From positions 1,116,001-1,180,000 of the forward strand of contig NZ_CP041970.1 in the NCBI RefSeq assembly GCF_009884975.1: DNA of 64,000 nt. The letters are read 5' to 3'. The DNA comes from Acinetobacter dispersus (GTDB lineage: Bacteria > Pseudomonadota > Gammaproteobacteria > Pseudomonadales > Moraxellaceae). Of the stretch, positions 1 to 15,994 are shown piece after piece. Within the stretch, counting starts at the first letter, position 1. Each line of letters opens with the position of its first letter. The position numbers and the translations under genes were made by a program. The notes beneath the pieces are model-generated. The model worked only from the letters and a program-made list of their open reading frames with translations, did no database searches and had not been told where the DNA came from.

Positions 1-2
1 AT

Positions 3-242
3 GAGTGGAAGCAGGGGCAAAATACGGCACCAGAGTTGAAAGCAATTACATGGGAAAATAAAACCTTAGCTTCACTCGCCAATATGGCCACAGTGAAATT
101 CCAGTTACGTAAACTCAGTCTTGGTAAATCAACCAATCCAAAAGTTTCTCCACTTTGGGCGTTGATTTTGCAACAATCAGCGATGACATGTCGTACGCGC
201 CAATATAAAAATCGGATGCGTACATATTCATTTGCATCTTAA
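3..242 (+). CDS. C-terminal end of an unrecognised protein (cut by window start)
   Basis: The reading frame is open from the window edge to a TAA stop and encodes about 79 residues; the N-terminus lies outside. The visible part is basic (many Lys/Arg near the end, e.g. TCRTRQYKNRMRTYSF) with no membrane segment. I do not recognise the family. A strong hairpin plus T-run follows 45 bases later, which supports this being the true end of a transcription unit. No function is proposed. Confidence 0.5.
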   Translation, partial: EWKQGQNTAPELKAITWENKTLASLANMATVKFQLRKLSLGKSTNPKVSPLWALILQQSAMTCRTRQYKNRMRTYSFAS

Positions 243-414: not shown

Positions 415-1461
415 CTATTTTGTATTTTCTTTAGCTTGATCTAATGCTGGAAAAGGAACGGGCATATTAAGTGCTAATTGAGCATCTTTTACTACATCTA
501 AACGTAATATCTTGTTTGCACCTAAGTCATCAAGTAATTTGCTCAGCGGGCCGCCGCTGCGAACAAGTTGCACATTTTTAGGAAATAGCTTCTGTCCAAA
601 TGCAAGGGTATTCGATTCCACAGAAGTGCTGTGCCATTTACCATCAACCAACTGATACATAGTTTTGGTTTCAATCCGTGATTGCGGCTTTACCGTTTTT
701 ATTTTAGGTAGAGGCGCAATTAGACTTAAATCAGGTTTGCCATCGGTATTAAAAATATGGGCTTGCAGCTCATGGCTACCAATTTTCATATCAATTGGGG
801 TTAACCACTTAGGTAGTTGATAACCATAAACGCCACGAACACGGGCGATTTCTGTATCAACAGGCAAGGCCAGTACATGTCCATAATAAGTATGATTTCG
901 CATAGAGCTTAACAATTCAGTGCTATTAAAGTGATGTGCACCAGGCTGACGAACCACAATGGCAACAGAAACCTCATCGTAGGGATCGACATCCCCCACG
1001 GCATAAGAGAAGAAAGTCAGTGAAACCAAGCCATAACCAGGAAGTGGCTGTAAAGGTTGAAGTGGAGCGGGGAGCTTAGCTTTTAATTTTGCAATAGGCG
1101 CTAACATCAATACTTGAACATTACTGGTCCGATAATAAAAATTAGGTGACCAGACTTTACCTACTCGGGTATCAACCAGCTTTTTAGGAATCGTACGGAA
1201 GTAATCAATATTGCCTGCTGCAGGATCTTTTGCAACTTCATCTAAGTTTGGATTCATGCGGAAGCGATCATAATAGCCACCTTTAGGTACAGCGACTTTA
1301 TAAGGTCCAAATTCAACGACAGTCGTTTGCTTTGCATTTGGAGCAGTAATATTACTCGTGGTGGCATTGATTGGGGCCTCAGCTGCATAGCTTGCTGTGC
1401 CGAGTAATAAGCCGATGGATATCGTAACGATGTTACGAGTTAAAGCAAAATTGTTGAACAT
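415..1461 (-). CDS. Acetoacetate decarboxylase-family protein with signal peptide
   Basis: A 348-residue protein starting with a basic and hydrophobic segment that ends in TASYAA, a likely Sec signal peptide, so it is probably periplasmic. The middle (about residues 95-330) resembles the ADC fold: a substrate-like loop GYGLVSLTFFSYAVGDVDPYDEV followed by YYGHVLALPVDTEIARVRGVYGYQLPKW. An exported ADC-family protein is unusual, because classic acetoacetate decarboxylase is cytosolic. The real substrate is therefore unknown, and activity on reactive carbonyls is only an inference from its neighbours. Its promoter carries the same MerR-type operator as the two DJ-1/PfpI genes nearby, so it is probably induced with them. 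Family assignment is reasonable; function is open. Confidence 0.7.
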   Translation of the reverse strand: MFNNFALTRNIVTISIGLLLGTASYAAEAPINATTSNITAPNAKQTTVVEFGPYKVAVPKGGYYDRFRMNPNLDEVAKDPAAGNIDYFRTIPKKLVDTRVGKVWSPNFYYRTSNVQVLMLAPIAKLKAKLPAPLQPLQPLPGYGLVSLTFFSYAVGDVDPYDEVSVAIVVRQPGAHHFNSTELLSSMRNHTYYGHVLALPVDTEIARVRGVYGYQLPKWLTPIDMKIGSHELQAHIFNTDGKPDLSLIAPLPKIKTVKPQSRIETKTMYQLVDGKWHSTSVESNTLAFGQKLFPKNVQLVRSGGPLSKLLDDLGANKILRLDVVKDAQLALNMPVPFPALDQAKENTK

Positions 1462-1491: not shown

Positions 1492-1522
1492 ATGCTAAGA
1501 TTAAAGCCCACTTTAAGGTCAA
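1492..1522 (-). promoter_or_regulatory. MerR-type promoter with inverted-repeat operator, upstream of the ADC-family gene
   Basis: On the minus strand TTGACC (1517-1522) and TAGCAT (1492-1497) are separated by exactly 19 bases, the long spacer typical of MerR-activated promoters. The spacer contains TTAAAG-N4-CTTTAA (1501-1516). The same arrangement precedes two other genes in this window. Confidence 0.75.
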
Positions 1523-1620
1523 GCGTTTTCAGAGGAAGAAAATCAATCAACAGAGGAAGCTGAATGGATCAGATATTCAATTGAGGGCAAAAGAGGGTTT
1601 TAGGTCAATTTAATTTGATA

Positions 1621-1650
1621 AAAAAACCAGCTGTTTTGAGCTGGCTTTTT
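1621..1650 (-). terminator. Terminator of the exported DJ-1/PfpI gene
   Basis: An AGCCAGCT / AGCTGGTT-type stem is flanked by A and T runs, 10 bases beyond the minus-strand stop codon. Confidence 0.7.
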
Positions 1651-1660
1651 ATTAACGATT

Positions 1661-2467
1661 TTAATTCAAAGTTTTTAACCGTTTGACAACAGCTTCAGCA
1701 ATTTCTTTACTGGATTGTGGATTTTGCCCAGTGATTATTCGATCATCGGTAATCACATAAGATGTAAAGGGTAAAAAGCCACGCTTATACTTTGCGCCGC
1801 GTGTGACCAATCCATCTTGTAAGGAGAAAGGAACTTGAGATTTTATCCCAGACAAGGTTTCTTCAACATTAGCAAAGCCTGTAACCGTACGACCTGCAAT
1901 GAGTGGCTGACCAGTTTGGGTTTTAAGCGGCAATAATCCACCTACACCATGACATACTGCCGATACAACACCACCTTGCTGATAAATCTTTTCGCTGATC
2001 TGCTTTAGGTCTTGGTTGTTGGGAAAATCCCACATGGTGCCATGTCCACCCGTGTAATAAATCGCTTTATAGTGGGAAGTATCAATGGCATTGGGTGCTA
2101 GTGTATTGCTTAAGCGTTGCATAAATTGGGGATCAGCCAAGTGCTTTTTTGCTGATTGATCAACATAAATTGGCTTAAGACTACGTTCATCTAGCGGTAC
2201 AGCACCACCTTGTGGACTGACAAAATCCATGTCATAGCCAGCTGCTTGTGCAATGTCATAAAAATGGGTGAGTTCAGTTAGCCACAATCCTGTCGTATCT
2301 GATCGAGTTGGATAAGCTGAGTGGTTGGTCATCACCACCAAAATTTTGCCTTTTGGCTTAGCTTGTACGTGTTGTTGAGCAGTTTCGGTTGCATAGGTCA
2401 TATTACTGATGAATATGAGCATAAAAATGCCAATCAACCACTTTGCAAAGTTCCAAACTTTAAACAT
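1661..2467 (-). CDS. DJ-1/PfpI family protein (Hsp31/glyoxalase III-like), exported or membrane-anchored
   Basis: A 268-residue protein. Residues about 8-27 form a hydrophobic N-terminal signal or anchor ending in MTYA-T, so the domain probably lies outside the cytoplasm. The class I amidotransferase-like domain follows: E65 in GLWLTELTH, the GGHGTMWDF loop (140-148) and the nucleophile elbow with C172-H173 in SAVCHGVGG. Glu, Cys and an adjacent His are the signature of the Hsp31 subgroup, known for glutathione-independent glyoxalase or chaperone activity. It is a paralogue of the cytosolic protein at 3100-3795. An upstream MerR-type promoter with the shared operator suggests joint induction. 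The enzymatic role is inferred from family and motif only. Confidence 0.8.
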   Translation of the reverse strand: MFKVWNFAKWLIGIFMLIFISNMTYATETAQQHVQAKPKGKILVVMTNHSAYPTRSDTTGLWLTELTHFYDIAQAAGYDMDFVSPQGGAVPLDERSLKPIYVDQSAKKHLADPQFMQRLSNTLAPNAIDTSHYKAIYYTGGHGTMWDFPNNQDLKQISEKIYQQGGVVSAVCHGVGGLLPLKTQTGQPLIAGRTVTGFANVEETLSGIKSQVPFSLQDGLVTRGAKYKRGFLPFTSYVITDDRIITGQNPQSSKEIAEAVVKRLKTLN

Positions 2468-2497
2468 GACAGGTTCCTCATTTGATACCTGAGGTTA

Positions 2498-2528
2498 ATG
2501 CTATGTTTAAAGTGAGGTTTAAGGTCAA
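2498..2528 (-). promoter_or_regulatory. MerR-type promoter with inverted-repeat operator, upstream of the exported DJ-1/PfpI gene
   Basis: The minus strand reads TTGACC (2523-2528), a 19-base spacer, then TAGCAT (2498-2503). The operator TTAAAC-N4-CTTTAA occupies 2507-2522 and matches the other two copies except at one base. Confidence 0.75.
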
Positions 2529-2595
2529 GTACTTTTGCAGATTTCTTTATGAGTTAGTCTTTGTGATTGCAGCTTAAAAACTGATAATTGACGTA

Positions 2596-3009
2596 TTAAG
2601 CTTTGTCATTGGTATAGTACAGATTGAGCAAACGCTGTGCATTTTCTTCGCAGGTAATTTCATCTGGTTTGCTATTGATCGCCACAATCATCATTTGCAG
2701 ATTTTGCTTACTCACTGCCAGTTTTTGCTCTAGTTCTTCAATATCTTTGATCTTGCTTTCGAGCAAGCTAATGAGAATGTCATGATTCCATGAAGAGACA
2801 TTCGATGGTAAAAACGCTTTAATTTCTGTCAGAGAAAAGCCAACTTGCTGTGCTTGTTGGATCAGGAATAGCTGTTTGAGATCATTTTCACTATATTCCC
2901 GATAGCCATTTGATTTGCGTTTAGCCTTCGGTAATAGCTTGATTTGCTCATAATAACGAATGGTTGGGGTGCTTAAACCACTTTGTTTAGATAATTCACT
3001 GATATTCAT
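2596..3009 (-). CDS. MerR family transcriptional regulator
   Basis: The ATG at 3007-3009 is chosen because it gives the classic MerR start MNISELSKQSGLSTPTIRYY (137 residues); an upstream in-frame extension would run through the divergent promoter. The winged helix-turn-helix (residues 1-70, GVREY-like GYREYSENDLKQL) is followed by a coiled-coil dimer helix (about 80-115) and a short tail with one Cys (TCEENAQRL). Metal-type MerR proteins usually have a Cys pair at the dimer end; this one does not, so an organic or electrophilic effector (AdhR/NmlR style) is more likely than a metal. It is divergent from the cytosolic DJ-1/PfpI gene and is the obvious candidate to bind the three shared operators. 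Confidence 0.85.
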   Translation of the reverse strand: MNISELSKQSGLSTPTIRYYEQIKLLPKAKRKSNGYREYSENDLKQLFLIQQAQQVGFSLTEIKAFLPSNVSSWNHDILISLLESKIKDIEELEQKLAVSKQNLQMMIVAINSKPDEITCEENAQRLLNLYYTNDKA

Positions 3010-3022
3010 TACTGATTTTCTC

Positions 3023-3053
3023 TTGACATTAAAGCAAACTTTAAGCTTATAGT
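3023..3053 (+). promoter_or_regulatory. MerR-type promoter and operator between the regulator and the DJ-1/PfpI gene
   Basis: TTGACA (3023-3028) and TATAGT (3048-3053) have a 19-base spacer containing the perfect inverted repeat TTAAAG-CAAA-CTTTAA (3029-3044). It drives the gene at 3100 and overlaps the start region of the divergent MerR gene, so autoregulation is likely. Confidence 0.8.
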
Positions 3054-3099: not shown

Positions 3100-3795
3100 A
3101 TGTCAAAACGTATTCTCCATGTGGTAACTAACATCTCTAAATATGAGGGTATTGATCGTCCAACTGGATTATGGTTAGGGGAACTGACGCATGCCTATGA
3201 TGAGTTTGAAAAGCAACACTATATTCAAGATATTGTTAGCCCAAACGGAGGACATTCGCCGATAGAACCTAAATCATTAGAACGTTTTGTTGCCGATGCT
3301 TCTGTGCTTAAACGTAAAAATGACCCCGTTTTTATGCAACTCTTGGAAACCACCAAACAGCCCTCTGAGATTAACTGGCAAGATTATGACGCAATCTATT
3401 ACACCGGTGGGCATGGGGTCATGTGGGACTTCCTAGACAATGCTGAATTGCAGAGCATCACCAAAAATATTTATGAACATGGTGGCATTGTTGCTAGTGT
3501 CTGCCATGGTTATTGTGGATTGCTCAATGTTCAGTTATCAAATGGACAATATTTAATTCAAGGGAAAAAGCTGACAGGCTTTGCATGGTGTGAAGAGGTA
3601 TTGGCTGGTGTGGCAAAGAAAGTACCTTATAATGCTGAAGAACTGGCAAAACAACGTGGCGCACTTTATCAAAGAAAATTCATTCCATTTCTACCCAATG
3701 TGGTGCGTGATGAGAACCTGATTACAGGACAGAATCCATTTTCTGCACGTGTTACCGCATTTTCGATAATTCATGCTTTAGAAGCTAAATCATGA
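3100..3795 (+). CDS. DJ-1/PfpI family protein (Hsp31/glyoxalase III-like), cytosolic
   Basis: A 231-residue protein without a signal peptide, preceded by an AGAGGTGAAAG ribosome-binding site. The domain covers nearly the whole length. E28 in GLWLGELTH, the loop GGHGVMWDF (103-111) and C135-H136 in SVCHGYCG form the Glu-Cys-His set of the Hsp31-like subgroup. Members convert methylglyoxal or glyoxal to hydroxy acids without glutathione, or act as redox chaperones. It sits directly behind a MerR-type promoter and is divergent from the regulator. It shares its core with the exported paralogue at 1661-2467, so the pair would cover cytoplasm and periplasm. Confidence 0.85.
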   Translation: MSKRILHVVTNISKYEGIDRPTGLWLGELTHAYDEFEKQHYIQDIVSPNGGHSPIEPKSLERFVADASVLKRKNDPVFMQLLETTKQPSEINWQDYDAIYYTGGHGVMWDFLDNAELQSITKNIYEHGGIVASVCHGYCGLLNVQLSNGQYLIQGKKLTGFAWCEEVLAGVAKKVPYNAEELAKQRGALYQRKFIPFLPNVVRDENLITGQNPFSARVTAFSIIHALEAKS

Positions 3796-3900: not shown

Positions 3901-4599
3901 TCATATTCCACATGCAACGCGCTTTTTCGTTGCTGAAAAAAGTGCTAATTCTGTTGCGAGTGTTTCTGCTTGATTCAATGCATTGTCTAAAGATTTTTGA
4001 TGGCGAATATCTGCAAATTCTTGATATTCAGATGCAATTTCATCAATATGCTCAACCCCTAAATATTTGCTTAAAGTACGTAAATGCGGCACAAGATGGC
4101 TTTGATTGGTGCGAATACCATCGGCATCAAAACCAAATTCTCCACTTGACGTGATAATCACCAAGCGTTTACCTGACAGTAAAGGTTGGAGTGGAAAGTC
4201 TCCGCGCGCAAGGTCAAAGTCAAAGGTTTTATTAATACGGATAATTTGATCAAACCACGCTTTTAATTGTGCAGGCATACCATAGTTATACATCGGTGAT
4301 GAAATCACGATAAGATCGGCTGCTGCAACTTCGGCAATCAATTGATCAGATAAGGCTAAGATTTGCTTTTGCGCGGTTGTTCTTTTTTCTTCAGGGCTAA
4401 ACACAGCACCAATCCAGTCTTGATTAATAAAAGCGGGTGGATTCATGCCTACATCACGATAAATATACTCATCTATCACTTGTTGCTGTTGTAAAGTCTC
4501 AATAAAGCGTTTTGCGATATTTTTGGAAATGGAATTATGACTTGGATTCGGATTGAAAGCTGCTCGAACACTGGCATCAATATGTAATAGGGTTGTCAT
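3901..4599 (-). CDS. azoR: FMN-dependent NADH-azoreductase (flavodoxin-like fold)
   Basis: A 232-residue protein with the AzoR layout: the FMN phosphate loop near the start (LHIDASVR... SISKNIAKRF), then SSPMYNYGMPAQLKAWFDQ, the hallmark FMN-binding and active-site segment around residues 100-118, and a later ITSSGEFG loop. The family reduces azo dyes and quinones with NAD(P)H through FMN and acts as a cytosolic quinone reductase under electrophile stress. It is divergent from a LysR gene, its probable regulator. Proximity to the carbonyl-stress-like genes fits a detoxification theme, although the MerR operator is not present here. Confidence 0.85.
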   Translation of the reverse strand: MTTLLHIDASVRAAFNPNPSHNSISKNIAKRFIETLQQQQVIDEYIYRDVGMNPPAFINQDWIGAVFSPEEKRTTAQKQILALSDQLIAEVAAADLIVISSPMYNYGMPAQLKAWFDQIIRINKTFDFDLARGDFPLQPLLSGKRLVIITSSGEFGFDADGIRTNQSHLVPHLRTLSKYLGVEHIDEIASEYQEFADIRHQKSLDNALNQAETLATELALFSATKKRVACGI

Positions 4600-4648
4600 G
4601 ATGAGTCACTCTAGAAATTAAAAGATAAATTCATCTTAAGAGATCATA

Positions 4649-4667
4649 ACTGGCTGGACAAACCAGT
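4649..4667. promoter_or_regulatory. Possible LysR operator in the azoR/LysR intergenic region
   Basis: ACTGG and CCAGT arms lie 9 bases apart, a short dyad between the two divergent genes. The assignment comes from position and symmetry only. Confidence 0.35.
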
Positions 4668-4726
4668 AAATTGCAGCTATGAATGAGTTAAATTCATCTA
4701 TAAAACTTATTTATGGAGTGTTGAAA

Positions 4727-5584
4727 ATGCAGGTTTCTTTACAAGCATTGAAAGCATTTGAATCTGCTGCTCGTTTAGGCAGTTTTAAATTGGCTGCGGA
4801 AGAATTGTCTTTGACACCAACTGCCATTTCTCATCACGTCAGCAATTTGGAAAGCCGCTTAAATGTGGATTTGTTTTATCGACAGGTTCGAAAAATCAGC
4901 TTAACAGAGACTGGCGAAAAATTAGCGATCGCAATATCTAAAGGATTTCGGACTATTGAAGATGCTTTAGAAGAGGTGAGTACCGCCAGCCGAGTGATTA
5001 AGATCACCACAACGTCATCCTTGGCAGCAATGATTTTGATTCCAGCCATGCAGACCTTTTCACAACTCCATCCAGAAATCGAGCTTGAGATCTCTACAGG
5101 TGAAAGTTTGGAAAATCATCTGTATGCACTGCCAATTCGCTATGGGGCTGTTGCATCGGTTTCCACTACAGACATTATTAAACATGAGTCATTTAATGTA
5201 TTTGCAGCCATAGGGCTATATACAGAGAATTGGGCTGAACAGTCGATTACGCTGTTTAACACAGAATGGAAAAATAAGAATTTGCCTAAACCGCCATTGC
5301 AAACATGGCTTGAGAAAAATACTTTTGAGGAAAAAAATATAACTGTACAGCACTTTGACCAAGAAATTTTTGGTATTCAAGAAGCAATGATGGCCAATGG
5401 ATTGGTATTTTGCTCAAACACATTGGTCAGTCGACTAATACAGGCAAAATTGATGCAATCATTAGTAACTGAAAGTGTGCAATCCGAACTATGTTATTAC
5501 ATTCCAGACAAAGAACAATTTAAGCGTAGAAATCGGCATATGAATGAACTGATTTTGTGGATAGAAGCACTGTTAAATCAATAA
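4727..5584 (+). CDS. LysR family transcriptional regulator
   Basis: The ATG at 4727 is chosen because GGAG lies 8 bases upstream and the product then starts MQVSLQALKAFESAARLGSF, the usual LysR start (285 residues). The N-terminal winged helix (ALKAFESAARLGSFKLAAEELSLTPTAISHHVSNLE) resembles the GcvA/AmpR branch. The C-terminal half is a periplasmic-binding-like effector domain. It is transcribed divergently from azoR and is probably its activator; the inducer is unknown. Confidence 0.85.
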   Translation: MQVSLQALKAFESAARLGSFKLAAEELSLTPTAISHHVSNLESRLNVDLFYRQVRKISLTETGEKLAIAISKGFRTIEDALEEVSTASRVIKITTTSSLAAMILIPAMQTFSQLHPEIELEISTGESLENHLYALPIRYGAVASVSTTDIIKHESFNVFAAIGLYTENWAEQSITLFNTEWKNKNLPKPPLQTWLEKNTFEEKNITVQHFDQEIFGIQEAMMANGLVFCSNTLVSRLIQAKLMQSLVTESVQSELCYYIPDKEQFKRRNRHMNELILWIEALLNQ

Positions 5585-5703: not shown

Positions 5704-5729
5704 TTTAATCACACTTTGTTTTGAGTCAA

Positions 5730-6257
5730 ATGATTGTGAACAAAACCCCTATGCTTGTAGATCAGTTATACAGAAACCATAGAGGCTGGCTTCATCAATG
5801 GTTGAGACAAAAAATAGGCAACACTGAGCAAGCTGCTGATCTGGTGCAAGACACCTTTATCAAATTACTGCAAACACGCGATGAACTGCTGGGCATTAAA
5901 GAACCTCGCGCTTATCTTACTTCAATAGCAAAAAACTTGCTCATCGACCAAGTCCGTCGCAAACGCATTGAACAGGCTTATTTAGATGGCTTGAGCCAGA
6001 TGGAATACATGCTGGATGTGGTTGCTTCGCCAGAAGATCAAATGCAGATTATTCAGGCGTTGGACCAGCTTTGTAAAGCATTGGAAGATGTCTCTGCTAA
6101 AGCACAACAAGCATTCATTTTGCATTACCTTGAAGGTTATACTCATAAGGAAACGGCAGAACGATTGGGTGTTTCAACCAAAATGATTCAGAAATATCTA
6201 GCAAACTGTCTGGCGCGCTGCTATCTGATTCGTTTAGAAATGGATGTCAGCATTTAA
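5730..6257 (+). CDS. FecI-like ECF sigma factor
   Basis: A protein of about 175 residues with the two ECF domains: sigma region 2 (QAADLVQDTFIKLLQTRD... EPRAYLTSIAKNLLIDQVRRKR) and region 4 (QAFILHYLEGYTHKETAERLGVSTKMIQKYL). The start is uncertain: TTG 5721, ATG 5730 and ATG 5751 are all in frame without a clear ribosome-binding site, and ATG 5730 is taken. It is followed with zero spacing by the FecR-like gene and then by an STN-domain receptor. By analogy with FecIRA, haem or haemophore binding at the receptor would release this factor to transcribe the receptor/haemophore genes. The Fur box adds iron repression. Confidence 0.9.
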   Translation: MIVNKTPMLVDQLYRNHRGWLHQWLRQKIGNTEQAADLVQDTFIKLLQTRDELLGIKEPRAYLTSIAKNLLIDQVRRKRIEQAYLDGLSQMEYMLDVVASPEDQMQIIQALDQLCKALEDVSAKAQQAFILHYLEGYTHKETAERLGVSTKMIQKYLANCLARCYLIRLEMDVSI

Positions 6258-7265
6258 ATGGCAATCGATAAACAAGTGCATCATCAATTGGTTGAAGAGG
6301 CTGCATTATGGATTGTGCAGTTAAGTTCAGATGATGAGTCGACCCGAAAAAATGCACAATTAAACTTTAATCAATGGAAACAGAACAGCCAGCAACATCA
6401 AAAAATTGCAGCTGATATCGAGCAGTGTATTCGCTCAATCCAAAAAGTATCTCAAACGGCACAGCATAAAAAAGTGGTTCAATCAGCACTTAAAGCAGGT
6501 TTGGGGTCTGCAAAAGCATATAAGCATGTTCGTGCGGGGAGTGCATTTGCGATTGCATTCGTTATCATCAGTGGTAGTTTCCTTTATGTGTCTGATACTT
6601 CTATTGCTTATATCAGCGCTGATATTCAAAGCGATTCGGCGCAGTGGACAACACAAACCTTACAAGATGGTTCGCGCTTAATTCTGCGGGGCAAGAGTGC
6701 AGTCAATATTGATTTCCAAGCAAAGCAAAGAGTGGTCGAATTGGTGCAAGGGCAGATTTATGTTGATGTTGCCAAAGATCCAAATCGCCCATTTTTAGTC
6801 AAAACCAAACATGGACAGATACAAGCGCTTGGAACGGCATTTAGTGTGGCTTTTAGACCTTCGGCAACAGAGTTAAAAATGTTGCATTCGCGAGTTCGTG
6901 TACAAGCTGCAGCGAATGAATATGCCAACCAGCAAGTGATTGTAAGCGCGGGACAAGCTGTCAGTATGAATCAAAATGGCGTGCAGTCACTGCCCGCACT
7001 GAATATTTATAATGAACAACAAAAATGGAATAAACATCAATTGATGGTAGAAGATTTACCGCTCGATCAGGTGTTAAAAGAATTAGATCAAAACTATAAA
7101 GGCAAAATCTTGTTTAATGCCGAAGCATTACAAGATATCCAAGTAAATGCGGTGTTGCCATTAGACCAAACACAGGATGCACTTAAATTATTAGCAACAG
7201 TATTTCCCAACTTAAAGGTATATCAAATTACACCTTATCTCATTGTTATTTCATTAAAAAAATAG
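6258..7265 (+). CDS. FecR-family anti-sigma factor
   Basis: A 335-residue inner-membrane regulator whose ATG abuts the stop codon of the sigma gene (TAAATG), so translation is likely coupled. The N-terminal DUF4880-like segment (EEAALWIVQLSSDDESTRKNAQLNFNQWK) should hold the sigma factor. One membrane helix is near residues 92-110. The periplasmic FecR domain follows (WTTQTLQDGSRLILRGKSAVNIDF, VKTKHGQIQALGTAFSV). The C-terminal end carries a small STN-like part (DLPLDQVLKELDQNYKG), as in many FecR proteins, where it meets the receptor signalling domain. Confidence 0.9.
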   Translation: MAIDKQVHHQLVEEAALWIVQLSSDDESTRKNAQLNFNQWKQNSQQHQKIAADIEQCIRSIQKVSQTAQHKKVVQSALKAGLGSAKAYKHVRAGSAFAIAFVIISGSFLYVSDTSIAYISADIQSDSAQWTTQTLQDGSRLILRGKSAVNIDFQAKQRVVELVQGQIYVDVAKDPNRPFLVKTKHGQIQALGTAFSVAFRPSATELKMLHSRVRVQAAANEYANQQVIVSAGQAVSMNQNGVQSLPALNIYNEQQKWNKHQLMVEDLPLDQVLKELDQNYKGKILFNAEALQDIQVNAVLPLDQTQDALKLLATVFPNLKVYQITPYLIVISLKK

Positions 7266-7401
7266 TTGGTATATTCATTGTCAAATGAACGCATTTTAAA
7301 AAGTTTTTATTTTTTTAAAATTTAGGTTCCACTTTTTTTAAAGCTGTTCGTCATAGTAAGTAGAAGCAATAAATTTGGGATCATTTTATTTTAACAAGTT
7401 T

Positions 7402-7418
7402 AATGATTCTTATTTACA
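7402..7418 (+). promoter_or_regulatory. Degenerate Fur-like box upstream of hphR
   Basis: AATGATTCTTATTTACA matches 11 of 14 consensus positions of the 7-1-7 Fur box and is nearly identical (16/17) to the copy before hphA. It could also reflect the sigma-dependent promoter region. Confidence 0.45.
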
Positions 7419-7435
7419 TTTACTGGGGCGGCAAA

Positions 7436-10400
7436 ATGAAGAACGTTGGAAAGGGTCAAATGCGTAATCGGAACTTATTTCGATTTTCAACACTCGCATT
7501 TGCAATACATACAGTTTGTATTGGTAGTCTGACTTTACCTTTACAATCGGCTTATGCAGAAACAGTTGGAACAAAAGCCTACAATATCCCAGCGGGAACC
7601 TTAGCCAATGTATTGAATCAATTTGCTGAACAATCTGGGACTTCAATTGCGATTGATGCACAACAATTAAAAGGTCAATACAGTTCAGGATTAAAAGGCA
7701 ATTATGCATTAGAGCAAGGCTTTCAACATATTTTAGCATCTTCAGCATTTTATGCAGTCAAAGCCGGACAGGGTTATACACTGGCGAAAAAGACCTCTCA
7801 AAGTGCCAATACCGCTTCTGTTGCTGCGAATGCAGTGGTGAGCACAGCATCTGCGCAGACTCAGGATGATGAAGTTTCGGTTCGTTTGACCCCACTTGTG
7901 GTCTATGGTCAACAAGATCGCGATACTCAGGGCAGCAATAGAGTTTACGATGCCAATCGGTCTTCTGTCTATGCAGGAAAAGACTATATTGAGCGCTTTA
8001 AAGGCACCAATCCAGCCGATGTTTTACAAGGGATGGTTGGGGTTTATAGTGGTGATGCCCGTAATAGTGGTGCTTTAGATCCAAGTGTTCGTGGTGTGCA
8101 GGGTGTAGGTCGAGTACCTTTAACCATCGATGGAACTGAACAGTCGATTGCAGTATGGCGTGGCTATAATGGCGTAAATAACCGAAATTATATCGATCCG
8201 AATCTAATTGCGGGTATTGAAGTCATTAAAGGGCCATCATTAGAGCGAAATACCACAACCTCAGTCGGTGGTGGCGTGGTGGTCAAGACCTTAGAAGCAG
8301 ATGATATTGTTCGTCCAGGTCAAACCTTTGGTGCAGAATTAAAAGTAGAAGGCTCAACCAACTCTATTGACCCATCGTTACCAGACATGAGCAAGGTCGG
8401 CAAGAATTATAATGATACGACGCCTTGGAATGATGTGGAGGGTAAAAAGTATGATCCCGACATATACAAGAAGAACCGAACTAAAAATGATAATTCTAAC
8501 TTCTCGGGGGATGATCTAGCAGGTCGACTGGCGTTGGCAATGAAGCAGGATAAATTTGATTTACTGGCGGTTTATGCTGTTCGTGAACGTGGCAACTATT
8601 TTTCGGGTACACACGGTTCGGGCTATTATAAACGGGCAGAACCGAGCAATAACCTCGATTTTATTCCTTATTTTGCACATTCCTATAAACCTGGTGATGA
8701 AGTTCCGAATACCTCTAGTCAAATGGAGTCTTGGTTATTTAAAGCAAACTATCGACCAACTGATGAGCAAGCCCTAAAACTTACTTATCGAGATACCAAA
8801 AATAGATTTGGTGAGATCATGCCTTCACGGATTGAGTGGGGTTTGACACCTGAAATTGGTGTACCTCAGTGGCCTCTTAGTGATATTCGTTCCAAGGCCT
8901 ATAGCTTGGAGTATAAGTTCAAACCTGAAACTAATCAGTGGGTCGATTTCTACGCCAATATTTGGCAGACCGATACAGAAAGCCAGACCTATACACGCGG
9001 TGGTTGGCCAACAACCATCGATTTTCGAGACAATCGCATTATCAATACGGCCATTAGCCATTCTGACAACCGACGTCAGGGCATTAATATCAGCAATAAA
9101 GCTCTATTAACAGATCAACTCAATTTAACTTTGGGCGGAAGCTTCTTAAAAGAAAAACTGACCTCTGATGATGTCTATGGTGAATATGGCCCAATGTATA
9201 GCCTATTTCAGGCTTTACCGCGTGCGGGCCGCCGTGAAGAAAAAACCTTTGATTTTAATTTTAACTATCAACCAGCCTCTTGGCTAAGCTTTGATGCAGG
9301 TATGCGCTATCGCTCATACTGGGCTTTTGATGATTTCTTAAATAAATCTCTAAGAGATGGGGTTGATCCTGCATTAAACCCACTATTTACCAAGAAAAGT
9401 AAACTCAAAGAATATAGCTTTGAATATGTAACAATGCCTGAAAGTTACAATGCTCAGCAGCAGCGTATGTTAGATCGGTTCTCACAGCGTTATGCCACCA
9501 AAAATCCAGATTGGGATGGAAAGTTAGAAAGTGTTCCTGCATCGGAAACACAGTTGTATAACCTCATTTGGACACAGAAGAATACGCTCACCTGGAAAGC
9601 AGATGAAAATGGTCATTTGGCTTTGGCTGATAATGTATTAGATCGACTGAATGCCTTAGGTCAAAAATATGTAATTACTGGAAATGGCAATCTTAGCCCT
9701 GCGGTGATTGAACAGGTTCCAATTGAGTCAGCGCAGAAAGTAAGAGACAGTGGTTGGGCTCCTCAACTCGGTGCATCCATTCACTTAACTGATAATAATC
9801 GGCTCTATGTCCGTTATGCAGAAGAGTATCGTTTACCCAGCTTATTTGAAAGTACGGTCGGTTTCTCTGCGATGATGCCATATCAAGCGATTAAACCCGA
9901 ACATGCGTTTAATTATGAAGTGGGTTATGTCTATGACATGCGTGATTGGTTAAGCTCAGCACGAAATGCCGATATTAAACTGGCGTATTACTACAACAAA
10001 ACCAAAAACGTGATTGAGCGAAATCAAAATCTGATTTTCACCAATATGGATGAGCAGAAGCTTTCTGGTTTAGAACTGCAAAGCCGTTTTGATAATGGTG
10101 CTTTCTTTAGCGATTTGAGCTTGGCTTATAACCTCAAAAATGAAGTCTGTGATACCAATAGTGCCATCGATAAAATGATTAACAGTGGAACGGTACAAAC
10201 GGATCAAGGCATCCAATTCCGTGATGCTTATCAACGGTGTGTCGACGATGGTTTTCCTAATGGTTATCTTGTCACCATGTCGACACCTGAACTCAGCGCA
10301 CATGCATTATTGGGCGCACGTTTTCTAGATGAAAGATTGGAACTAGGCGCACGAGCAACCTTCTACAAAGGCTATGAAAGTCCGCTACGTAAAAATAACG

Positions 10401-10618
10401 ATGCGGGTATCAATAAAGGCTATTACCTCAATGTACCGTTAGCTTGGGATGACACCTGGATTTTTGATGCCTATGCACGTTATCAAGTTGATACCTATAA
10501 CACAGTAGAATTTGTCGGAAATAACCTTTCAAACCAATTCTATATCGATCCACTCACTCGGAGTGCAATGGCTGCACCAGGCCGCACGCTGAAAGTCAGC
10601 TGGACCACTAAGTTTTAA
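7436..10618 (+). CDS. hphR: TonB-dependent haemophilin/haem receptor with STN signalling domain
   Basis: ATG 7436 is chosen over 7403 because GGGGCGG sits 5 bases upstream. The product (about 1060 residues) has a signal sequence ending QSAYA, then an STN domain (KAYNIPAGTLANVLNQFAEQSG to AGQGYTLAK). A plug domain follows (TPLVVYGQ box, YIERFKGTNPADVLQGMVGVYSGDARNSGALDPSVRG) and then a large 22-strand barrel ending in the outer-membrane signature KVSWTTKF. The STN domain is the partner expected for the FecI/FecR pair just upstream. Position next to hphA, slam, tonB and hemO identifies it as the receptor that extracts haem from the secreted haemophore, as described for Acinetobacter HphR. The signalling role here is inferred. 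Confidence 0.88.
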   Translation: MKNVGKGQMRNRNLFRFSTLAFAIHTVCIGSLTLPLQSAYAETVGTKAYNIPAGTLANVLNQFAEQSGTSIAIDAQQLKGQYSSGLKGNYALEQGFQHILASSAFYAVKAGQGYTLAKKTSQSANTASVAANAVVSTASAQTQDDEVSVRLTPLVVYGQQDRDTQGSNRVYDANRSSVYAGKDYIERFKGTNPADVLQGMVGVYSGDARNSGALDPSVRGVQGVGRVPLTIDGTEQSIAVWRGYNGVNNRNYIDPNLIAGIEVIKGPSLERNTTTSVGGGVVVKTLEADDIVRPGQTFGAELKVEGSTNSIDPSLPDMSKVGKNYNDTTPWNDVEGKKYDPDIYKKNRTKNDNSNFSGDDLAGRLALAMKQDKFDLLAVYAVRERGNYFSGTHGSGYYKRAEPSNNLDFIPYFAHSYKPGDEVPNTSSQMESWLFKANYRPTDEQALKLTYRDTKNRFGEIMPSRIEWGLTPEIGVPQWPLSDIRSKAYSLEYKFKPETNQWVDFYANIWQTDTESQTYTRGGWPTTIDFRDNRIINTAISHSDNRRQGINISNKALLTDQLNLTLGGSFLKEKLTSDDVYGEYGPMYSLFQALPRAGRREEKTFDFNFNYQPASWLSFDAGMRYRSYWAFDDFLNKSLRDGVDPALNPLFTKKSKLKEYSFEYVTMPESYNAQQQRMLDRFSQRYATKNPDWDGKLESVPASETQLYNLIWTQKNTLTWKADENGHLALADNVLDRLNALGQKYVITGNGNLSPAVIEQVPIESAQKVRDSGWAPQLGASIHLTDNNRLYVRYAEEYRLPSLFESTVGFSAMMPYQAIKPEHAFNYEVGYVYDMRDWLSSARNADIKLAYYYNKTKNVIERNQNLIFTNMDEQKLSGLELQSRFDNGAFFSDLSLAYNLKNEVCDTNSAIDKMINSGTVQTDQGIQFRDAYQRCVDDGFPNGYLVTMSTPELSAHALLGARFLDERLELGARATFYKGYESPLRKNNDAGINKGYYLNVPLAWDDTWIFDAYARYQVDTYNTVEFVGNNLSNQFYIDPLTRSAMAAPGRTLKVSWTTKF

Positions 10619-15319: not shown

Positions 15320-15994
15320 ATGTATAAGGCTATATTCTTTGATATTGACGATACTTTGCTTGATTTTAGCGTAGCCAACCGCTCTGCATTTGTTAAATCG
15401 TTTGGGCAGTTTAACTTACAGCATGATGATTTGACTTATTCTACCTATAAAAATATTAATCATCAGCTATGGGAAAAACAGAAGTTAGGTCAAATTACAG
15501 TACAGAATGTGATTGATTATCGATTTAAAGAATTATTTTTGGCTTTGAATATCGAATTAGATCATGATCATTTTCGGGATACCTTCCAAGGCAATTTAGC
15601 CAAAGAGCATACCCTTGAGGATGGAGCAACTGAAGCAATTCAATACCTGAGCCAAAAATATAAGTTATTTGCTGCATCCAATAGTTTTCTGAATCAACAA
15701 AAATCACGTTTGGACTTGGCTGGTTTGTTATCACATTTTTCTGATTTATATATTTCAGATGACATCGGCTACGAGAAGCCTGATCAACGTTTTTTCGAAA
15801 CCTGCCTGCGTAGAAGTAATATTGCGAAAGAAGAAGTCTTATTCATTGGCGATAGCTTAGAGGCTGATATGAAAGGGGCTACTTCCTGTGAAATTTCGAC
15901 ATGTTGGTACAATCCTAAAAATTTACCCAATCACTATGATTTAAATCTAACGCACTCTATTCAGCATTTATCTGATTTAGTAAAGATTTTATAA
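15320..15994 (+). CDS. yjjG: HAD-family nucleotidase (YjjG-like)
   Basis: A 224-residue haloacid dehalogenase hydrolase. Motif I FFDIDDTLLDF (nucleophile D8, acid D10), motif II AASNSF, motif III Lys in DDIGYEKPDQRFFE and motif IV FIGDSLEADMKGA are all present, and a helical cap lies between residues 15 and 90. The order and cap fit YjjG noncanonical pyrimidine nucleotidases, which clear damaged nucleotides such as 5-halo or 5-hydroxy UMP. Its end overlaps the convergent gene by 6 bases. Confidence 0.8.
   Translation: MYKAIFFDIDDTLLDFSVANRSAFVKSFGQFNLQHDDLTYSTYKNINHQLWEKQKLGQITVQNVIDYRFKELFLALNIELDHDHFRDTFQGNLAKEHTLEDGATEAIQYLSQKYKLFAASNSFLNQQKSRLDLAGLLSHFSDLYISDDIGYEKPDQRFFETCLRRSNIAKEEVLFIGDSLEADMKGATSCEISTCWYNPKNLPNHYDLNLTHSIQHLSDLVKIL

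Follow-up and report, generated by a model that had tools for sequence, protein, structure and literature searches.

In this study, we examined a 64,000-nucleotide stretch of the Acinetobacter dispersus genome (in the following, the window), in which three promoters of the MerR type lie close together, and asked whether they answer to one regulator and, if so, to what kind of signal this regulator would respond. Read directly from the minus strand, positions 1522–1492 give TTGACC, 19 bases and TAGCAT, facing the gene of an exported-type ADC-family protein (ADC1), and positions 2528–2498 on the same strand give the same two hexamers at the same distance, facing an exported-type DJ-1/PfpI gene. 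The third promoter, located on the plus strand at 3023–3053 between merR and the gene of a cytosolic DJ-1 protein, reads TTGACA, 19 bases and TATAGT. In all three, TTAAA(G/C)-N4-CTTTAA is found at the start of the spacer with equal offset, and all three match exactly a full pattern of 31 bases, TTGACN-TTAAAS-N4-STTTAA-N3-TANNNT, which occurs three times in the window and not once in 100 shuffles. The preliminary description of this DNA had claimed three promoters, each with a −35, an exact 19-base spacer and a −10, as well as TTAAAG/C-N4-CTTTAA at the same offset in each spacer; the shuffles bear out the former point and direct reading the latter. The operator core alone was rejected as evidence, since it is near chance in the window, where it occurs four times at up to one mismatch compared to 1.48 expected (6 of 100 shuffles reach four), and since nine of its 15 exact places in the genome (7 for the reversed pattern) lie outside the six promoters described below.

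Extending the search to the whole genome of 4.02 Mb, as had been proposed in that description, returned six exact matches to the full pattern, all of them between 1,113,611 and 1,119,053 and thus within 5.5 kb. The next-best matches carry three mismatches and, being four in number, do not rise above the reversed control (five), while a second, looser pattern with up to two mismatches recovered the same six promoters genome-wide and nothing for the control. All six show the spacer of 19–20 bp that characterizes promoters of the MerR family. Consequently, the three promoters of the window are real, but the regulon as initially delimited was too small, with three further promoters located beyond the left edge of the window at 1113611–1113641 (minus strand; L011 5611–5641), 1113825–1113855 (plus strand; L011 5825–5855) and G000:C1:1114946–1114976 (plus strand; L011 6946–6976), each an exact match to the full pattern. 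These three precede ADC2, a paralogue of the ADC-family gene followed by a saccharopine-dehydrogenase-like gene (sdhL), an alpha/beta hydrolase gene of the chloroperoxidase/arylesterase type, and an Old Yellow Enzyme (OYE) gene, the last being led by the promoter at 1114946–1114976. The OYE matches PF00724, and the 3' end of its gene reaches into the window (1–242, plus strand). An alcohol dehydrogenase of the adhC/adhA type was not found among the targets that the six promoters face.

The target enzymes in the window could be assigned with differing confidence. For the ADC-family protein (415–1461, minus strand, 348 aa, signal-peptide-like start), an ADC fold is predicted, with a mean pLDDT of 76 for the model and 24 PDB matches at E ≤ 0.001, namely ADC, aldolase-dehydratase, ADC-like enzymes and MppR, which belongs to the ADC superfamily. 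Lys218 of this protein is invariant in 25 sequences and lies within an LPKW segment; we take it to be the Schiff-base lysine. The protein itself has no Pfam match and hence does not reach the Pfam ADC gathering score, ADC2 scores just below the cut-off (28.8 vs 29.8), and PF06314 is matched by all five homologues of the protein in the window, in one case above the cut-off. The exported-type DJ-1/PfpI protein (1661–2467, minus strand, 268 aa), whose signal-peptide-like start was recognized by eye, scores 42.1 bits against PF01965, compared to a cut-off of 26.6, and the cytosolic one (3100–3795, plus strand, 231 aa, Hsp31/glyoxalase-III-like, no signal peptide seen) scores 52.5 bits. The targets named initially, an ADC-family protein and two DJ-1/PfpI proteins, thus hold up, both DJ-1 proteins by family score and the ADC protein by predicted fold. 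An alignment of the cytosolic DJ-1 protein with yeast Hsp31 covers the CHG motif, with Cys135–His136 corresponding to the nucleophilic cysteine and the histidine that follows it; for E. coli Hsp31, PMC5297802 describes the matching cysteine and a glutamate as essential, with the histidine following. As read from the sequence, both ADC and DJ-1 are present as one plain copy and one copy with a signal-peptide-like start, which suggests that the response may operate in the cytosol and beyond the inner membrane alike. An MdlD-like aldehyde dehydrogenase additionally belongs to the regulon of A. sp. A47 and A. haemolyticus, followed in A. haemolyticus by a PIG3-type quinone reductase; this zinc-dehydrogenase relative was seen behind the aldehyde dehydrogenase at locus L036 only. 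Adjoining the regulon in the window are the genes of an azoreductase-like flavoprotein and a LysR regulator with their upstream regions facing each other (3901–5584), where no site is found, and further on three consecutive genes (5721–10618) which by eye encode an ECF sigma factor, a FecR-like protein and a TonB-dependent receptor.

In related species, the sites precede genes of the same families. From 80 loci kept, the 23 of Acinetobacter were analysed and the other 57 (29–45% identity) set aside. Together with the window's own locus, the 23 named loci contain 111 sites at up to two mismatches, 106 of which precede one of seven target families and one merR; the remaining four, without assigned target, lie at the aldehyde dehydrogenase (L036), at split ADC2 frames (L033, L050) and in a place with no long frame nearby (L034). 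Viewed from the genes, 102 of 103 leading target genes in the 23 loci have an upstream site at up to two mismatches: 19/19 for the hydrolase, 17/17 for the exported-type DJ-1, 17/17 for the cytosolic DJ-1 (weaker, with two mismatches in 6 of the 17), 20/21 for OYE, where the one miss has 44 bp upstream, 13/13 and 12/12 for the two ADC types (12/12 being ADC1) and 4/4 for sdhL genes that lead their unit. This count is per gene and leaves out matches below 50% identity or with E > 1e-20, including a DJ1exp match at L045, whose nearest site has three mismatches. In the same 23 loci, no site at up to two mismatches precedes sdhL where it lies behind ADC2 (0/7), nor any of the neighbourhood control genes (FMN reductase, LysR, nitronate-monooxygenase-like; 0/16). 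Gene order diverges strongly between species, yet each unit has kept its own promoter. In orthologous promoters, the operator arms are 91–99% identical and the 5' flanks 34–52%, a comparison in which only the contrast between arms and flanks counts, since the orthologous sites were chosen by pattern. When only the core is demanded upstream of the targets, the best spacer is 19 in 91 of 111 cases. In Acinetobacter sp. ANC 3929 and NIPH 2100, ADC2 appears broken into several reading-frame pieces behind an intact promoter (L033 ~15397–15820; L050 ~15393–15780). Sites facing merR itself are found at L044 (9816–9846), L133 and L134, suggesting autoregulation in these three genomes; the only site near merR in the window faces the DJ-1 gene.

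Across the genus, regulator and sites occur together. This MerR (E ≤ 1e-35) is encoded in 42 of 149 Acinetobacter genomes, and at least one site at up to one mismatch is present in 53. A site is never absent where this MerR is encoded, and 39 of the 42 genomes carry at least two; of the 107 genomes without this MerR, 11 carry a single site and no genome carries more. The reversed pattern gives five matches across all 149. For two or more sites against presence of MerR, Fisher's test returns p ~1e-32, a value to be read as a guide only, since the genomes are related. Apart from these sites, G019, G025, G071, G075, G097 and G098, mostly genomes without this MerR, contain promoters of a further, similar kind (TTGACATTAAACCATTGTTTAAATTTAGGAT and close variants), which another regulator may control. 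G058 and G133, neither of which encodes this MerR, share one identical, isolated site (TTGACCTTAAAGGTGAATTTAACGCTACGAT, one mismatch).

The association extends beyond the genus. Among 293 genomes of the order, counting that of the window, the regulator (E ≤ 1e-25) is encoded in 13, each with an exact site of the looser pattern, compared to 8 of the 280 genomes without MerR at this threshold and none for the reversed control. Nine Pseudomonadales genomes outside Acinetobacter encode the regulator at E ≤ 1e-35; they represent four families and five genera, and their MerR is 40–47% identical. Searched in full at up to one mismatch, these nine contain 24 sites, 21 of which precede OYE (8), ADC (7), DJ-1 (3), the hydrolase (1, at a distance of ~250 bp) or merR (2), while two of the other three precede an NAD(P)-binding-like protein (by eye) and one has no target. 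In one of the genomes (G270), three sites facing ADC, DJ-1 and hydrolase genes lie ~1.1 Mb from merR, which argues that the link between site and regulator is not mere neighbourhood. We additionally inspected seven of the eight genomes with a site but without MerR at E ≤ 1e-25. In four of them a MerR of 36–37% identity adjoins the site; three of these four also have OYE there, and the fourth has what reads by eye as a sugar-epimerase-like gene. Two have the site within an island of copper-ATPase and cytochrome-biogenesis-like genes (by eye) with other MerR proteins, and in one no MerR is in view. In the copper-related case of L146, two C-terminal cysteines are found in the MerR next to the copper-ATPase-like gene, and a second MerR, also near a site, has a cysteine in its DNA-binding part and none at the C-terminus. 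The exact looser-pattern matches at L146 13328–13358 and L148 4018–4048 both precede a peroxiredoxin-like gene, a two-cysteine MerR and a copper-ATPase-like gene (by eye). Such exact sites beside other regulators indicate that, at long range, the promoter pattern overlaps with operators of other MerR proteins, including those of the metal type.

Judged from sequence, the reading that one MerR acts on one type of operator at six promoters, which would form one small regulon, is strongly supported, and we favour it with very high confidence. The preliminary description had likewise assigned the shared operator to one regulator, and co-occurrence, target-specific placement and persistence of the sites at 40–47% identity of the regulator speak for this assignment. 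It had also named the merR gene next to one of the promoters as the only one, and by homology to itself it is indeed the sole MerR gene in the window, with six more MerR-like genes elsewhere in the genome. The regulator (2596–3009, minus strand, 137 aa) scores above the cut-offs of PF13411, PF00376 and PF09278, and its closest relatives among named species are those of A. genomosp. 15BJ (98% identical) and A. proteolyticus (96%).

Its sequence contains a single cysteine, Cys120, with the codon at 2650–2652 on the minus strand. Of 198 homologues found, 120 are among the matches listed, and in these Cys120 is present in 119, with one gap; cysteines in other columns of this MerR occur once each at residues 95 and 137, and none was found at residues 1–94 in any of the 120. 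His76 is near invariant in the same set (119/120), and one may speculate that it reaches the effector site. Cys120 is kept in all nine homologues of 40–47% identity, two of which (L111, L114) have an extra cysteine at 51–52. In the four homologues of 36–37% identity, Gly-X-Cys is found near the place of Cys120 in different surroundings, with an extra cysteine at 52 in one (L143) and an extra C-terminal cysteine in another. A cysteine in the DNA-binding domain is, given L111, L114 and L143, not foreign to the wider group, and these three relatives, which combine a C-terminal cysteine with one near the AdhR/NmlR place, are possible intermediates between sensing modes, as is the second MerR of L146 with its cysteine in the same region. 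In the predicted model of the regulator (mean pLDDT 88), a short loop leads up to the C-terminal helix, which starts at Cys120. The nearest solved fold is CueR, to which the HMMER alignment ends at residue 111; the assignment of the C-terminal site consequently draws on model and conservation, and as to which CueR ligand was lost we make no claim beyond the single cysteine left. Taking model and conservation together, Cys120 is likely a thiol switch for electrophiles.

We propose, with a probability of roughly 0.7, a model in which the six-promoter regulon is held shut by MerR and switched on by a reactive electrophile modifying the lone Cys120. MerR proteins, according to PMC9909328, bind promoters with an over-long spacer and repress them, and activation distorts the DNA such that −35 and −10 are lined up. 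The six promoters with 19-base spacers around a single merR gene would likely constitute one regulon of this kind, kept closed by the regulator. The signal would be an electrophile, namely a quinone or an aldehyde of the unsaturated or dicarbonyl type, and it would act via Cys120, where the C-terminal helix begins; the enzymes of the regulon would remove the class of compounds that induces them. We infer a reactive carbonyl or quinone as the inducer class. With OYE, DJ-1 and ADC, the targets include enzymes for carbonyls or quinones, and the inference is rendered more likely by the presence of OYE, by the fact that relatives add an aldehyde dehydrogenase and a PIG3-type quinone reductase, and by the lone conserved cysteine.

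Several known systems resemble the one described here in part. The operator of B. subtilis AdhR (YraB), CTTAAAG-N4-CTTTAAG, is very similar to the present one, and AdhR is likewise a MerR-family protein with a DJ-1-family target. According to PMC4776306 and PMC6943732, this target is yraA, and methylglyoxal and formaldehyde are signals to which AdhR responds; according to PMC4776306 and PMC3499171, the carbonyl-responsive MerR regulators NmlR and AdhR depend on a cysteine at 52–54. AdhR needs Cys52 (54 in another source) in its DNA-binding part, whereas the present regulator has no cysteine there and a single one at 120; its regulon also lacks an adhA-like target and contains OYE, ADC and hydrolase instead. 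NmlR of Haemophilus and Neisseria is comparable in being a MerR-family regulator of carbonyl or formaldehyde defence that is divergent from its target, but it is described in PMC4776306 with adhC-estD as target and a conserved Cys54, in both of which our regulator differs, and the solved HiNmlR is titled as lacking a sensor domain, while a C-terminal helix starting with the conserved cysteine is predicted here. With an electrophile sensor in control of OYE and glyoxalase, the E. coli system NemR–nemA–gloA would be functionally alike, NemR being a cysteine-based sensor of this type according to PMC5297802. However, NemR is a TetR-type repressor and unrelated to this MerR in fold and promoter logic. 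In titles and opening lines of abstracts of the open-access literature, no description of the regulon was found, and the SoxR-like MerR named in an ethanol RNA-seq study (PMC2848557) is apparently not the one described here.

One alternative is that the regulator is a regular orthologue of NmlR/AdhR, with aldehydes sensed through a cysteine of the DNA-binding domain, as suggested by the response of AdhR to methylglyoxal and formaldehyde and its control of yraA. Membership in this family, raised by the DJ-1 target and the similar operator, was rejected on the missing cysteine, given that residues 1–94 are free of cysteine in the 120 homologues among the matches listed, and on the family score (NCBIfam NmlR 57.6 bits vs a cut-off of 175); together with the lack of an adhC-like gene among the targets, this leaves us to regard such an orthologue as most improbable. 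A metal sensor like CueR or ZntR we consider very unlikely as well. CueR is both the nearest solved fold and the highest NCBIfam score, CueR, CadR and other metal-responsive MerR proteins share the long-spacer geometry of the promoter, and similar sites lie near the copper-ATPase-like gene in L146 and L148. Yet the CueR score of 81.6 bits stays far below the cut-off of 147.4, the regulator has one cysteine and not the two C-terminal cysteine ligands of such sensors, and its targets found are detoxifying enzymes with no metal pump among them.

The alternative that deserves most attention takes the regulon as real but its inducer as a growth substrate or intermediate, bound non-covalently, with the enzymes forming a catabolic route of ester or lactone hydrolysis, ene reduction, ADC-type chemistry and aldehyde oxidation. 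Hydrolase, OYE, ADC and aldehyde dehydrogenase can be read as such a pathway, and the patchy occurrence of the cluster in the genus (42 of 149 genomes) would fit. It is, however, unusual for a pathway that the set of enzymes is incomplete at several loci and that other genera often have OYE or ADC sites only; moreover, the genes led by a site include no transporter as far as seen, and a non-covalent ligand needs no lone conserved cysteine. We therefore hold this explanation to be unlikely. That the sites are shared by coincidence or belong to some other regulator could be argued from the operator core, which with 15 places in the genome is not rare; against the full pattern, its co-occurrence with this MerR and the match of targets across families, it retains next to no probability.

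Returning to a regulon opened by an electrophile at Cys120, a wider reading can be tentatively put forward, to which we assign slightly less than even odds. The regulator would represent a separate MerR clade found across Pseudomonadales, whose effector site at the C-terminus has been reduced to one reactive thiol, that of Cys120, accompanied by the nearly invariant His76 and Lys/Arg 114; electrophiles would be sensed covalently at this site and not in the DNA-binding domain, driving a detoxification regulon of OYE, DJ-1 and ADC with paired cytosolic and exported enzymes. What is new would then be a regulator akin to AdhR and NmlR that works without their DNA-binding-domain cysteine.

For a genus that includes hospital pathogens, the locus offers a complete, testable regulon consisting of regulator, operator, promoters and targets, and the operator could be put to use directly as a reporter for reactive carbonyls. 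Should Cys120 be the sensor, the MerR family would have a second way of electrophile sensing, distinct from that of NmlR and AdhR, in which a scaffold of the metal type has been turned into a thiol switch.
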